Shown here: positions 32,137 to 36,466 of the stretch, in pieces
Position numbering within the stretch: position 1 is the stretch's first letter
Layout: each line of letters starts with the position of its first letter
From: an uncultured Oscillospiraceae bacterium
GTDB taxonomy: Bacteria; Bacillota; Clostridia; Oscillospirales; Oscillospiraceae
Direction: 5' to 3'
Length of the DNA stretch: 38,356 bases
Assembly: GCA_944387125.1 (NCBI GenBank)
Contig: CALXDT010000035.1
Coordinates: 1-38,356, forward strand
Notes under the pieces: generated by a model
Databases searched by the model: none
The model's input: the letters and a program-made list of their open reading frames with translations, nothing else
Told to the model about the DNA's origin: nothing
Program-made: the position numbers and the translations under genes

Positions 32137-32721
32137 TTACCCGTAGGTGTTGATGATGTTTTGCGCCGCGTCCCGCTTGGAAATGCAGTGATCCATGGCC
32201 AAACGTTCAATGTAGTGGTGGGCGGCCGGTTCTTCCATGTGCTCTTGGCTGATCAGCAGACATTTTGCGCGGTTGATGATGCGAATCTCCTCCATCCGTT
32301 CCTCGATGGACAGGGTTCTTCGCTCCAACAGACGCAGACGTTCCCTGGCGCTGATCATCCAGCTCAGTCCCTGGCTGAGGGCGGAGCGGGAGGTGGGCTT
32401 TGCCAAAGCGAAAATCCCATGCTCTGCTACCCGGTCATAGATCTCGGGAAAGATCTCCGATTTCACAAACACCAGAACCACCGCAGAATGGCTGCGGCAG
32501 CAGTCAATGGCAAACCGGGTGCCCGCTTCGTCCGGAAGGGGAAGGTTGATGACAATGAAATCATAGTCTCGCTCCGCGGTGCAGCGCTTGGCTTCACTGG
32601 CACTGGCCGCGATACGGACGGGCTGGTACCGGGCAGGGGAGAGCATTTCCTGAAACGCGGTATTAAATTTTTCAGAATTGGATACCAGCAGAACGCTGTA
32701 GACACGCTCAGTTAAGCGCAT
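32137..32721 (-). CDS. ANTAR-domain regulator with degenerate receiver domain
   Basis: A 194-residue protein: a receiver-like domain (about 8-125), a coiled-coil linker (125-147), and an ANTAR RNA-binding domain (about 148-190) with ERMEEIRIINRAKCLLISQEHMEEPAAHHYIERLAMDHCISKRDAAQNIINTYG. ANTAR domains bind dual-hairpin RNA and prevent termination, and ANTAR genes next to glnA are a clostridial theme in nitrogen control. The receiver lacks the phospho-acceptor: the usual Asp is Asn59 (FIVINLPLPDEAG), and the acidic pair near position 14 reads SN. Lys108 remains (ALAKP). It is thus likely controlled by something other than phosphorylation. It follows glnA after 30 nt. Confidence 0.88.
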   Translation of the reverse strand: MRLTERVYSVLLVSNSEKFNTAFQEMLSPARYQPVRIAASASEAKRCTAERDYDFIVINLPLPDEAGTRFAIDCCRSHSAVVLVFVKSEIFPEIYDRVAEHGIFALAKPTSRSALSQGLSWMISARERLRLLERRTLSIEERMEEIRIINRAKCLLISQEHMEEPAAHHYIERLAMDHCISKRDAAQNIINTYG

Positions 32722-32751
32722 ATGTACCCCTCCCCGTGGCTTCAGATTCCG

Positions 32752-33963
32752 TTAAGGATTGCTATAGGCTTCCAAAATCGCCTTGGGGACATGCCGGCGG
32801 ATAAAGTCGCTCTCCTCGGCCAGCATACAAGCCTCTTTCAAGGTTTCCGGCATTTTCCGGTATTGCTTTAAAACCTCCGGATCAGCCCGGTACAGGTTAA
32901 AGTCTGCCGGCTGGGGCAGGGGAAGCCGATTCGCGATGCCGTAAAGACCTGCGTAGATTATCAAGGCAAAGGCCAGGTAGGGATTGGCGGTGGGGTCAGG
33001 GGAGCGCAGCTCGGCGCGGCGGTATTCCCCCACAGCCGCCGGGACGCGAACCAGCTGGCTGCGGTTTTCGCTGGACCAGGATACGTATTTCGGCGCTCTG
33101 TCATGGCCGAACCGCTGGTAGGAGGCGGTCACTGGGTTCAAAAACGCGGTCATTTCCGGGGTTTTGTCCAAAATGCCGGCAATCACATGGGAAAGAGACT
33201 GGCTGCCGTCGGCGGCATTTACAGAGAGGTTGATGTGGAAACCGTTGCCGGGGCGGTTGGTCAAAGGCTTGGGAGAGAAATCCGCATGAAGTCCGTTCCG
33301 CCTGGCGATGGTTTTCACCACCGTCTGGAAGGTCATTACATTGTCCGCTGCGGTAAGGGGATCTGAGTAGCGGAAGTCAATCTCATTTTGACCGGGGCCT
33401 TCCTCATGGTGGGAACACTCCGGCCGGATGCCCATTTGCTCCAGCGTCAGGCAGATCTCCCGCCGGACGTTTTCTCCCTTGTCATCGGGAGCAATGTCCA
33501 TATAACCGGCATGGTCATACGGTTCCTTGGTGGGATTTCCGTCCTGATCCAGCTTAAACAGATAGAATTCTTGCTCCGCGCCAAAAAAGAAGGAAACCCC
33601 CGCCGCTGCCGCGGCAGCCACAGCCTGTTTCAGCAGGTTCCGGGTATCGCATTCGTGGTTCTTTCCGGAAAGATCGGTGATGCTGCTGAACATCCGAACG
33701 ACCTTGCCATGCTCCGGGCGCCAGGGAAGAATGGTCAGGGTTCGGCTCTCCGGTCTCAGGAACAGATCCGAATGGGTTTCGTCCCCAAATCCCCGGATGG
33801 AAGAAGCGTCGAAAGCGATTCCCTGCACAAAAGCCCGGGGCAGCTCCTCCGGCATAATGGAGATGTTCTTTTGTCTGCCAAATACATCACAGAAGGCCAG
33901 GCGGATGAACTTTACGTCATCTTCCTGAACGTAGAGCATAACTTCTTCGTTAGAGTAATTCAT
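32752..33963 (-). CDS. glnA: Glutamine synthetase, short type I form
   Basis: A 403-residue ATP-dependent glutamine synthetase that fixes ammonia onto glutamate. Key blocks are present: FDASSIRGFGD, FFFGAEQEFYLFKL (metal Glu), HHEEGPGQNEIDFRY, KPLTNRPGNGFHINLSV (Gly/His loop), and NRSQLVRVPA plus RRAELRSPDPTANPYLA. It is about 40 residues shorter than the common 440-residue GSI-alpha, and the usual C-terminal helical extension ending in WEREQYLxxY-like sequence is missing. In Bacillus that end helps GS bind regulators. A TGAGGT ribosome site precedes the ATG. The 118-nt gap upstream shows no ANTAR-type double hairpin I can pick out. Confidence 0.93.
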   Translation of the reverse strand: MNYSNEEVMLYVQEDDVKFIRLAFCDVFGRQKNISIMPEELPRAFVQGIAFDASSIRGFGDETHSDLFLRPESRTLTILPWRPEHGKVVRMFSSITDLSGKNHECDTRNLLKQAVAAAAAAGVSFFFGAEQEFYLFKLDQDGNPTKEPYDHAGYMDIAPDDKGENVRREICLTLEQMGIRPECSHHEEGPGQNEIDFRYSDPLTAADNVMTFQTVVKTIARRNGLHADFSPKPLTNRPGNGFHINLSVNAADGSQSLSHVIAGILDKTPEMTAFLNPVTASYQRFGHDRAPKYVSWSSENRSQLVRVPAAVGEYRRAELRSPDPTANPYLAFALIIYAGLYGIANRLPLPQPADFNLYRADPEVLKQYRKMPETLKEACMLAEESDFIRRHVPKAILEAYSNP

Positions 33964-34081
33964 AGCGATACCTCATTTGTTGGGTTCTGACTCCTTGAGA
34001 AACGGATGTTAATGAACCTCTGAATAAATACCCATGCGCTTTCGCAGTGTGCCACCATTCATGAAAGGCTTCGGCGGCATC

Positions 34082-36391
34082 TTACAGAGGTTTGCGGTGC
34101 TGGTACACCCGTTTGAGCTGATCCAGAATATCCGCGTCCGCGGGACAGAAAGAGAAATCGTCGATCTGACTGGGATGGATCCACTGAAGATCCTCGTGCT
34201 CCAAGGCCTGAGGAAGGCCGGAAGGGATCACACAGTGAAACAGCGTCAGGCGGATCAAAATATCCGGGTACTGATGGGTAACTTGCATGAACGGCTCGCC
34301 TACATTCACCGCAACGGCCAGCTCTTCGGCGCACTCCCGGGCCAAAGCCTGCTGCATGGTTTCCCCGGGCTCTACCTTGCCGCCGACAAATTCCCACAGC
34401 AGCCCCCGCGCCTTGCCCTTGGGACGCTGGCAGATCAGGAATTTGTCCTTTTCCCAGATCAAAGCGGCGACCACATCAACCGGTTTTTTCTTCCCCAGAA
34501 CCATGGCGCTGATGGGAGGGATCTGTACGGAATCCTCCGCGGTGCCCAGGGGTGCGGTACCTGCCTGATCCTGGTGAATGAAAATATCCCAGGCTCCCTC
34601 CGGAAGCTGCTGGTGCACCGTCTGGGTATCCGCGTTGAAGATTACATACAATTCCTCCGATGGATCGCTGATGTGGAAGGCTGTTACATGGGGGTTTTCA
34701 CAGGAAACCGGATGGACAGCCTTAAATACGGCGTCTTTGGTGGTCAGACGCAGAACCGGATGGGCTTTTCGGAATGCGATAAGCCCGCGGTAATATTCGG
34801 CGGTTTTCCGGAAGAGGGGCTTATCCAGATCCTCCCACTTCAGGGAGTTGACCTTATCCGGGGAATGATAACTGTTATGGTCAAAGCCGCCCCGTTTGCC
34901 GGGCTTTGTCCGGAGAAATTCTTCTCCCGCCTGGAAAAAGGGGATCCCCTGGGACAGTATGGAGAAAGCGGCGGCCAGGTTGTTCATTTGCGTGCGGACT
35001 TCCACGGGAGCTTCCGGAGCGGCCAATGTGATGCGGTCAAACAGGGTGTTGTTGTCGTGGCAGGAGACATAGTTTATGCACTGGTTCGGCTGAGCCGCCC
35101 AAAGAGGGACGCCCATAAAACAGGCTTCCAGGGTGTCCTTGCAGCAAAGGGCGCCGGTGACATAGCCGGGGTCGGTATTGTAAAATACGGAGCCGCGGAG
35201 AAGATCCCGGATGGTATCGTTGAAAAACGCGAAATCGGGCACCTTCCCGGAGTTTTTCTGAACGGCCAGATCCAAATGGGGCTTGGTTGGATGGGTGTTC
35301 ATCACCCAGCCCTCTCCGTAGAAAATCACGTTGGGATGGGTTTTGTGCACAATCTGGACGATTCGGTTGATGGTATCCACGTCCAGCAGCCCGACCAGGT
35401 CAAAGCGGAATCCGTCAATATGGTATTCCTCCACCCAGTATCTTACAGAATCGACAATGTATTTGCGCACCATGGATCGCTCGGAGGCGGTGTCGTTGCT
35501 GCAGCAGGATCCGTTGGAAAGGGAACCGTCCGGCAGCTCCCGGCTGAAATACCCCGGTACGATCTGATTGAAGCAAAAGCTCTCCGCATCGTAGACGTGG
35601 TTATAGACCACGTCCATAATCACACTGATCCCGTTTGCGTGAAGATCCCTGACCATCTGCTTCATTTCCCGCACGCGCACAGCTCCGTCAAAGGGATTGG
35701 AAGAATAGGAGCCTTCCGGCACATTGAAGTTCACCGGATCGTATCCCCAGTTGAACTGGGGGCTGCTCCGGCTTTCATCGGTATAGCCGTAGTCAAAAAC
35801 CGGCAGCAGGTGCAGGTGGGTAATCCCAAGGGCTTTGATATGATCCAAACCGGTGGGACTGCCGCCTTTGGTTTTGGTGCCGGTTTCCGCAATGCCGGCA
35901 AATTTTCCTTTGTTGCGGATCCGGGAGCTGCGGTGCATGGATAGATCCCGGACGTGCAGCTCATAAATCACGGCGTCGGTCACAGAAGCGCCTGCGTGGG
36001 GATCGGTATCCAGCTCCCAGCCCTGGGGATTCAGCGCGGACATATTCAGGATCATTGCCCGCTCTCCGTTGACGCCGGTGGATTTGGCGTAGGGGTCGCA
36101 GGCTTCGCTCATCTTGCCATCTGCGATTACAAAGTAGGTATAATACAGCCCGTTTAAGTCGCCCTCACCCAAGGCGGTCCAAGTCCCGTTTACATCCGGC
36201 TGCATGGGGATTTGATACAGCAGATCCTCATGGCCGGGCGTGCCGTTTCGGTAAATGTTCACGGTCACTTCCTGCGCGGTGGGCGCCCAAAGACGAAAAA
36301 ATGTCTTTTCAGGACTCCAGGTGGCGCCCAGGTCGCTGCCGGTGTAAGTATACTTTTCTTCGAATTCTCTGGTAGAGTAGAGATCGTGCAT
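34082..36391 (-). CDS. pulA: Type I pullulanase fused to a C-terminal Nudix (MutT-like) hydrolase
   Basis: A 769-residue cytoplasmic protein with no signal peptide. N-terminal CBM48-type domain about 18-110 (GATWSPEKTFFRLWAPTAQEVTV). GH13 core about 140-545 with pullulanase motif FNWGYDPVNF (213-222), DVVYNH (260-265), GFRFDLVGL with nucleophile Asp331, YGEGW with acid Glu360, and YVSCHDNNT (441-449). Beta-sandwich to about 633. Then GKKK (633-636) leads to a Nudix domain, about 637-769, with GGKVEPGETMQQALARECAEELAV as Nudix box (one Gly replaced by Ala). It debranches alpha-1,6 links of glycogen-like glucan; the Nudix half would hydrolyse a nucleoside or sugar nucleotide. Both parts are in one frame. 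AAGGAGC precedes the ATG. Confidence 0.9.
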   Translation of the reverse strand: MHDLYSTREFEEKYTYTGSDLGATWSPEKTFFRLWAPTAQEVTVNIYRNGTPGHEDLLYQIPMQPDVNGTWTALGEGDLNGLYYTYFVIADGKMSEACDPYAKSTGVNGERAMILNMSALNPQGWELDTDPHAGASVTDAVIYELHVRDLSMHRSSRIRNKGKFAGIAETGTKTKGGSPTGLDHIKALGITHLHLLPVFDYGYTDESRSSPQFNWGYDPVNFNVPEGSYSSNPFDGAVRVREMKQMVRDLHANGISVIMDVVYNHVYDAESFCFNQIVPGYFSRELPDGSLSNGSCCSNDTASERSMVRKYIVDSVRYWVEEYHIDGFRFDLVGLLDVDTINRIVQIVHKTHPNVIFYGEGWVMNTHPTKPHLDLAVQKNSGKVPDFAFFNDTIRDLLRGSVFYNTDPGYVTGALCCKDTLEACFMGVPLWAAQPNQCINYVSCHDNNTLFDRITLAAPEAPVEVRTQMNNLAAAFSILSQGIPFFQAGEEFLRTKPGKRGGFDHNSYHSPDKVNSLKWEDLDKPLFRKTAEYYRGLIAFRKAHPVLRLTTKDAVFKAVHPVSCENPHVTAFHISDPSEELYVIFNADTQTVHQQLPEGAWDIFIHQDQAGTAPLGTAEDSVQIPPISAMVLGKKKPVDVVAALIWEKDKFLICQRPKGKARGLLWEFVGGKVEPGETMQQALARECAEELAVAVNVGEPFMQVTHQYPDILIRLTLFHCVIPSGLPQALEHEDLQWIHPSQIDDFSFCPADADILDQLKRVYQHRKPL

Positions 36392-36436
36392 AACGATGAT
36401 GCTCCTTGATGATGAGATTGAGGCAATGTCTCTAGC

Positions 36437-36466
36437 ATTATAGCATAGGGAGGGTGGGGATGTAAA
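36437..36466 (-). promoter_or_regulatory. Sigma-A promoter of pulA
   Basis: On the minus strand TTTACA (36466-36461), an 18-nt spacer, then TATAAT (36442-36437), about 45 nt before the ATG. Confidence 0.7.

Follow-up and report, generated by a model that had tools for sequence, protein, structure and literature searches.

The window analysed here is a stretch of 38,356 nucleotides from an uncultured Oscillospiraceae bacterium. Positions 34082–36391 of its minus strand were occupied by a single open reading frame of 769 residues, with an ATG start, a TAA stop and no internal stop codons. The encoded protein consisted of a type I pullulanase (residues 1–632; 34496–36391, minus strand) followed, with hardly any linker, by a complete Nudix domain (residues 639–758; 34118–34477, minus strand). 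The original prediction of one 769-residue pullulanase–Nudix protein was thus sustained, all domains scoring above their profile cut-offs. The Nudix-coding part, which had been placed at about 34083–34483, was correct to a few bases.

A promoter-like sequence (TTTACA and TATAAT separated by 18 bases, with an extended -10) lay 46–75 bases upstream of the ATG (36437–36466, minus strand) and matched the consensus at 11 of 12 positions. This assignment is a consensus match only. Eight such sites were found in the scanned 5.4 kb versus 3.5 expected, and the one at the fusion gene was favoured only by its quality and position. AAGGAG, resembling a ribosome-binding site by eye, was located 11–16 bases upstream (36402–36407, minus strand), leaving 10 bases to the ATG. 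The protein began with MHDLYSTREFEEKYTYTG, in which no signal peptide was evident by eye, and it is therefore probably cytosolic.

An open frame of 636 residues ran antisense to the fusion gene (34034–35944, plus strand), probably as a by-product of codon make-up. After the fusion gene, at 32137–33963 on the minus strand, were genes for a glutamine synthetase (PF00120) and an ANTAR response regulator; homologues of both likewise followed the fusion gene in a related genome, G014.

The two halves and their junction

The type I pullulanase profile TIGR02104 matched residues 10–612 with 692.6 bits (cut-off, 504.5), and a CBM48 domain at residues 21–102 (36086–36331, minus strand) exceeded the Pfam cut-off. 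The motif [YF]NWGYDP marks type I pullulanases; it was present as FNWGYDP at residues 213–219, and in 24 of 24 fused rows of the alignment, one further row being cut. Asp331 (35399–35401), Glu360 (35312–35314) and His445-Asp446 (35054–35059, all minus strand) were at the positions originally predicted, and all 25 fused rows retained them. Their catalytic roles are those established for GH13 enzymes.

In a Foldseek search, the top PDB match was the pullulanase of Paenibacillus barengoltzii (TM 0.77 by query, 44% identity), and the best 50 PDB matches were all GH13 enzymes, namely pullulanases, limit dextrinases and isoamylases. The P. barengoltzii PulA (PDB 6jeq) shares the CBM48 domain, the GH13 barrel and the catalytic set with the fusion protein, at 44% identity over the pullulanase part. 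The chains of such known type I pullulanases, however, end where the Nudix domain begins in the fusion protein.

The Nudix half matched PF00293 (NUDIX, residues 639–758) with 61.2 bits and PF14815 (NUDIX_4, residues 641–758) with 78.2 bits, against gathering cut-offs of 21.1 and 35. By its 23-residue pattern, the Nudix box spanned residues 671–693 (34313–34381, minus strand), one residue later than the 670–692 first proposed. It satisfied GX5EX7REUXEEXGU everywhere except at the late Gly, which was indeed replaced by Ala (residue 692) as had been noted.

That this Ala might alter activity was not borne out. Position 692 was A in 19, G in 3 and D in 3 of the 25 fused rows, and A in 16, G in 13 and D in 7 of 36 unfused rows. 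The idea that Ala692 signals lost activity was therefore rejected: Ala is common in the unfused relatives and represents ordinary family variation. No fused row lacked E677, R685 or E686 (25 of 25), and E689/E690 were retained in 24. The exception was G014 (L111:6102–8411, minus strand), where the EE pair was KK (codons AAA AAA), so that the Nudix half there looks catalytically dead. G014 was the nearest relative of the window's protein on both trees.

Scores of the Nudix half fell below the equivalog cut-offs of NudG (NF007834; 97.7 versus 156 bits), the MutT 8-oxo-dGTPase (TIGR00586; 76.7 versus 97.9 bits) and PRK08999. We therefore term it NudG/MutT-like rather than NudG, and its substrate is uncertain. 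The best solved relatives by sequence were 5x1x (MutT), 3ees, 2rrk (CTP pyrophosphohydrolase), 3hhj (MutT), 3r03, 3gwy and 5zrc (MutT2). The 24 solved relatives bore the names MutT, NudG, MutT2, MTH1, NudI or NUDT18, or unspecific ones; judged by these names, the closest relatives were not ADP-sugar enzymes. The Nudix half shared with the MutT, NudG (Orf135) and MutT2-like pyrophosphohydrolases (5x1x, 2rrk, 3gwy and 5zrc) the Nudix box, a MutT-like length and the best sequence matches, but differed in falling below the equivalog cut-offs, in Ala692 and in riding as the tail of a pullulanase.

In one study, the protein of 3gwy (Q5LBB1) preferred 5-Me-CTP, 5-Me-dCTP and 5-hydroxymethyl-dCTP, and the substrates given for NudG were CTP and 5-methyl-dCTP (PMC5158307). 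The substrates of the nearest assayed relatives are (5-modified) (d)CTP or else oxidised dNTPs, and on this likeness the Nudix half probably acts on the same compounds.

The two halves met at GKKKPV (residues 633–638; 34478–34495, minus strand). The predicted in-frame GKKK junction was confirmed, GKKK-PVDVVAAL being read in the window without a stop. Most fused genes followed the consensus [VA]L-x-[KRQ][KR][KR]-PV[DE]VVAAL, and the others carried 0–6 extra residues. In an AlphaFold2 model built from 78 rows (pLDDT 93.2, pTM 0.89), the last pullulanase strand (628–635) was separated by one residue from the first Nudix strand (637–647), and mean pLDDT values over residues 621–650 were 98, 92 and 95. 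The pTM would fit a fixed arrangement of the two domains.

The Val codon of PV[DE] was GTG in 22 of 25 fused genes; at the two Val codons that follow it, GTG made up 31 of 50 (p 0.03, hand count). In the window gene this codon was GTT, and an internal GTG start for a separate Nudix product was rejected for it.

Conservation and origin of the fusion

Conservation with both catalytic sets had been named as a way to check the fusion. Among 136 genomes available for the genus, 25 carried the fusion, including that of the window, with the pullulanase set in 25 and the Nudix EE pair in 24. Twenty-three were full length without stops, at 59–73% identity to the window. G139 had a frame break inside the pullulanase half, and in G063 the fusion gene was cut by a contig end.

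Outside the genus, no fusion was detected in an order sample of 394 genomes, among the matches listed, with two candidates scored per genome. None was detected either in the 19 of 400 family-sample genomes that had a match at E <= 1e-150. In a named genome collection, of which 80 of 163 loci were kept, the Nudix domain was present at four, three fused and one split. These were G138, G131, G149 and G017 again, adding no new case. Two other loci of that collection (L067 and L085) had matches beyond residue 690, and no Nudix domain was found there.

At E <= 1e-20, this Nudix family was matched once, and only once, in each of the 25 fused genomes. In the other 111 genomes of the genus, 41 had a Nudix not fused to pullulanase (twice in G021) and 70 had none at that threshold. 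The contrast between 25 of 25 fused genomes without an extra copy and the 41 of 111 gave a Fisher p of 6e-5, for genomes that are related and incomplete; all are MAGs, in which a second copy could be missed. This suggested that the fused Nudix replaces the free protein rather than adding to it. Further pullulanases were present, among the matches listed, in three of the 25 fused genomes (G083, G091 and G099).

In 14 pairs, many with dS above 1, dN/dS was 0.04–0.17 for the pullulanase part and 0.015–0.17 for the Nudix part (13 finite pairs, one saturated). Both halves are under purifying selection. Together with the lack of a second family copy, this suggested that the Nudix half probably keeps its old job. 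An annotation by best domain only would bury the genome's sole copy of this Nudix in a 'pullulanase'.

In three genomes, G017, G101 and G125, the pullulanase and the Nudix were separate adjoining genes. They overlapped by four bases in G017 (stop/start ATGA) and in G125 (GTGA, with the start codon as read here), and a terminator-like hairpin and T run lay between them in G101. The split pullulanase of G125 (L199) had an extra hydrophobic tail ahead of the Nudix gene. Gene pairs kept apart by a junction stop, which had been set out as a finding that would speak against a real fusion, therefore do exist, but as a sister state beside 25 fused genomes.

On the Nudix tree, the 25 fused domains formed one clade (support 97/83). 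The three split Nudix grouped together as well (98/89); both groups lay in one part of the tree that was itself weakly supported (80/87), and a single clade of fused and split Nudix was not rejected (p-AU 0.47). The fused or unfused state changed once on this tree and at least three times on the pullulanase tree. On the latter, the split G125 was beside the fused G099 (87/92), and G005 and the second G083 copy sat among fused rows; one clade of all fused pullulanase rows was not rejected (p-AU 0.41).

The original prediction had offered, as one reading, two enzymes joined after the loss of a stop codon. The split neighbours and the single clade of fused Nudix domains upheld it: on these trees, a single fusion by stop-codon loss appears to be the simplest account, with a later split or exchange possible in G125.

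Gene order also indicated how the pair may have arisen. Behind the free Nudix gene of G011 came a cytidylate-kinase-like gene and then a series of genes also found after the pair, whether fused or split, in G012, G017, G099 and others. Upstream of it was an alpha/beta-hydrolase-like gene (named by eye), and the same gene preceded the pullulanase in G004, G101, G116, G128 and G076. The pullulanase gene thus seems to have been inserted between the alpha/beta-hydrolase-like gene and the Nudix gene.

Further fusion partners of this Nudix family

In the order sample of 394 genomes, 106 genomes contained the Nudix family at E <= 1e-35, with 110 loci in total. At 27 of these the frame exceeded the query by 100 residues or more; all 27, plus a few with shorter frames, were read for fusions. 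Fusions were confirmed at 20 of the 27 (20 of the 110 overall), counting the window. The other seven long frames were open frames without a partner (G485, G357, G274, G285, G050, G409 and G247).

With the partner N-terminal to the Nudix, the 20 comprised the window's pullulanase–Nudix, six HD–Nudix, two alpha/beta hydrolase–Nudix, one ArsC–Nudix and one AlkD–Nudix. In the reverse order were three Nudix–AlkD, three Nudix–GNAT, and one each with an AP_endonuc_2 barrel, an aldo/keto reductase and an iron-sulphur protein. The genus also had a Nudix–nitroreductase (G085), a Nudix–AlkD (G081) and, in G010, a Nudix joined to a protein without another Pfam match. A barrel–Nudix was found in G1130 of the class sample.

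Partners above Pfam cut-offs were HD in three of four scanned (the fourth, G474, scored 23.2 versus 27.2 bits), ArsC, AP_endonuc_2 in two, DNA_alkylation in five, the nitroreductase, the aldo/keto reductase, GNAT in one of three scanned, and the alpha/beta hydrolase of G189. In G451, Pfam matched the Nudix only, and the iron-sulphur match of G349 was below cut-off. The remaining HD and GNAT calls rest on visible similarity.

The HD partner was a small protein of the HD_4 type, RelA/SpoT-like by eye (L212, L213, L214, L215, L217 and L231, in G375, G421, G503, G317, G486 and G474), with a double zinc ribbon as a tail in one of them. It is possible that these proteins join an alarmone hydrolase to a nucleotide pyrophosphohydrolase. 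The AlkD-like DNA alkylation repair domain occurred in both orders (Nudix–AlkD in L225, L227, L228 and L230; AlkD–Nudix in L229), as would suit a function in maintaining nucleotides and DNA.

For a control, a cytidylate-kinase-like protein, 3 of 53 loci in 84 genomes had a frame at least 100 residues longer, counted by frame length alone. The difference from the 20 of 110 confirmed Nudix fusions (p 0.03) is a weak contrast, because the genomes share ancestry and so do not count as independent, and because only 84 of them were covered by the control.

The other fusions (HD_4, DNA_alkylation, GNAT, ArsC, AP_endonuc_2, nitroreductase and aldo/keto reductase) resembled the window's in having the start of the Nudix domain near the junction. 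They differed in their partners, some of which were C-terminal to the Nudix. As judged from these gene sequences, fusion of this Nudix domain is recurrent and not tied to glucan metabolism. The occurrence of about ten other partner types, at either end, is evidence against a coupling specific to pullulanase.

Multi-domain Nudix proteins such as NadM-Nudix and MutT-ThiE likewise have a Nudix domain on one chain with an unrelated enzyme. They differ from the present case, in which one Nudix family has many partners and the partner is a pullulanase. No description of a pullulanase–Nudix fusion was found in open-licence papers. Some Nudix hydrolases are reported to bear other enzymatic domains (PMC5389931).

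Interpretation of the two-enzyme protein

We interpreted the protein as a conserved two-enzyme chain from one stop-loss fusion, both halves being active and independent and their production tied together, with a probability of about 0.7. A type I pullulanase gene would have come to sit just upstream of a MutT/NudG-like Nudix gene, and the pair would then have overlapped by four bases in some lineages. In one lineage, the stop codon of the pullulanase would have been lost along with the start codon of the Nudix, giving one chain in which the last pullulanase strand is predicted to run directly into the first Nudix strand. From the kept catalytic residues, both halves are inferred to be active. 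The pullulanase half would debranch glycogen or maltodextrin in the cytosol, and the Nudix half would still clear unwanted (d)NTPs by hydrolysis to the monophosphate, its probable substrates being (5-modified) (d)CTP or else oxidised dNTPs. There would be no shared chemistry, and the fusion would merely tie the production of both enzymes.

Alternatively, the Nudix half may be a non-catalytic, regulatory module that binds a nucleotide and tunes the pullulanase. The near-zero linker, the continuous strands of a confident two-domain model and the well conserved motif [KR]K-PV[DE]VVAAL would be expected from such a module, and G014 keeps the fusion though its EE pair is lost. On the other hand, the acidic box is full in 24 of 25 genes, and the fused copy is the genome's only one of its family, so that lost catalysis would be lost function. 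The same domain is also carried by about ten unrelated partners. We consider this explanation unlikely.

Somewhat less likely still is a sensing or control role for a nomadic module. The sequences show that in this order the single-copy Nudix was serially joined to unrelated partners of about eleven types (pullulanase included), on one end or the other. Tethering would putatively let the state of (d)CTP or damaged nucleotides adjust the partner, or put nucleotide cleaning under the partner's growth-linked control.

A coupling of glucan debranching to the hydrolysis of ADP-glucose had been proposed at the outset. Glycogen turnover would then be steered by the joint action of the Nudix on ADP-glucose and of the pullulanase on glycogen branches. 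The genome does provide for ADP-glucose synthesis, since GlgC and GlgA were both over cut-off, close together on another contig (C69). The closest solved relatives, however, are of the MutT, NudG and MutT2 type, and for one of these the assayed substrates were 5-modified (d)CTP. In the same assay study, ADP-glucose activity belonged to another Nudix, Q92EH0_LISIN (PDB 3I9X; PMC5158307), which was absent from the 24 solved relatives. Unfused copies and the fusions to AlkD, HD, GNAT and others occur in other contexts. The coupling was therefore not supported, and we regard it as very improbable.

A stop or frameshift missed at the junction by the assembly would be conceivable with fragmented assemblies and related genomes that do have a junction stop, but 25 genomes of the genus share the fusion in frame across the junction, at 59–73% identity to the window and with a conserved junction sequence, and such an artefact was rejected for the group as having a negligible chance.

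The two-enzyme fusion adds a sugar-polymer enzyme to the known partners of Nudix domains. Both parents are still visible as neighbouring genes, so that the passage from gene pair through four-base overlap to fusion can be traced in one genus. With one single-copy nucleotide-pool domain on many enzymes, neutral hitch-hiking versus the wiring of nucleotide cleaning to other processes becomes testable.

A cytidylate-kinase-like gene (PF13189 by Pfam scan of the G012 copy, L112) lay downstream of the fusion gene, in the same orientation, at 13 of the 25 fused loci, and was absent beside the window's fusion gene. It also occurred in G017 and G125, where the genes are split, and next to the unfused pullulanase in G005. 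Of 33 loci examined with a free Nudix, 2 (G011 and G134) had it directly after the Nudix gene. Its loci, with fused, split or free Nudix, included L113, L117, L118, L143 and L206 besides L112. Such a neighbour would fit a CTP-to-CMP reaction.

MutY was over cut-off in the window's genome. At L207, L218, L134 and L135, a peptide-deformylase-like gene (by eye) adjoined the free or otherwise fused Nudix.
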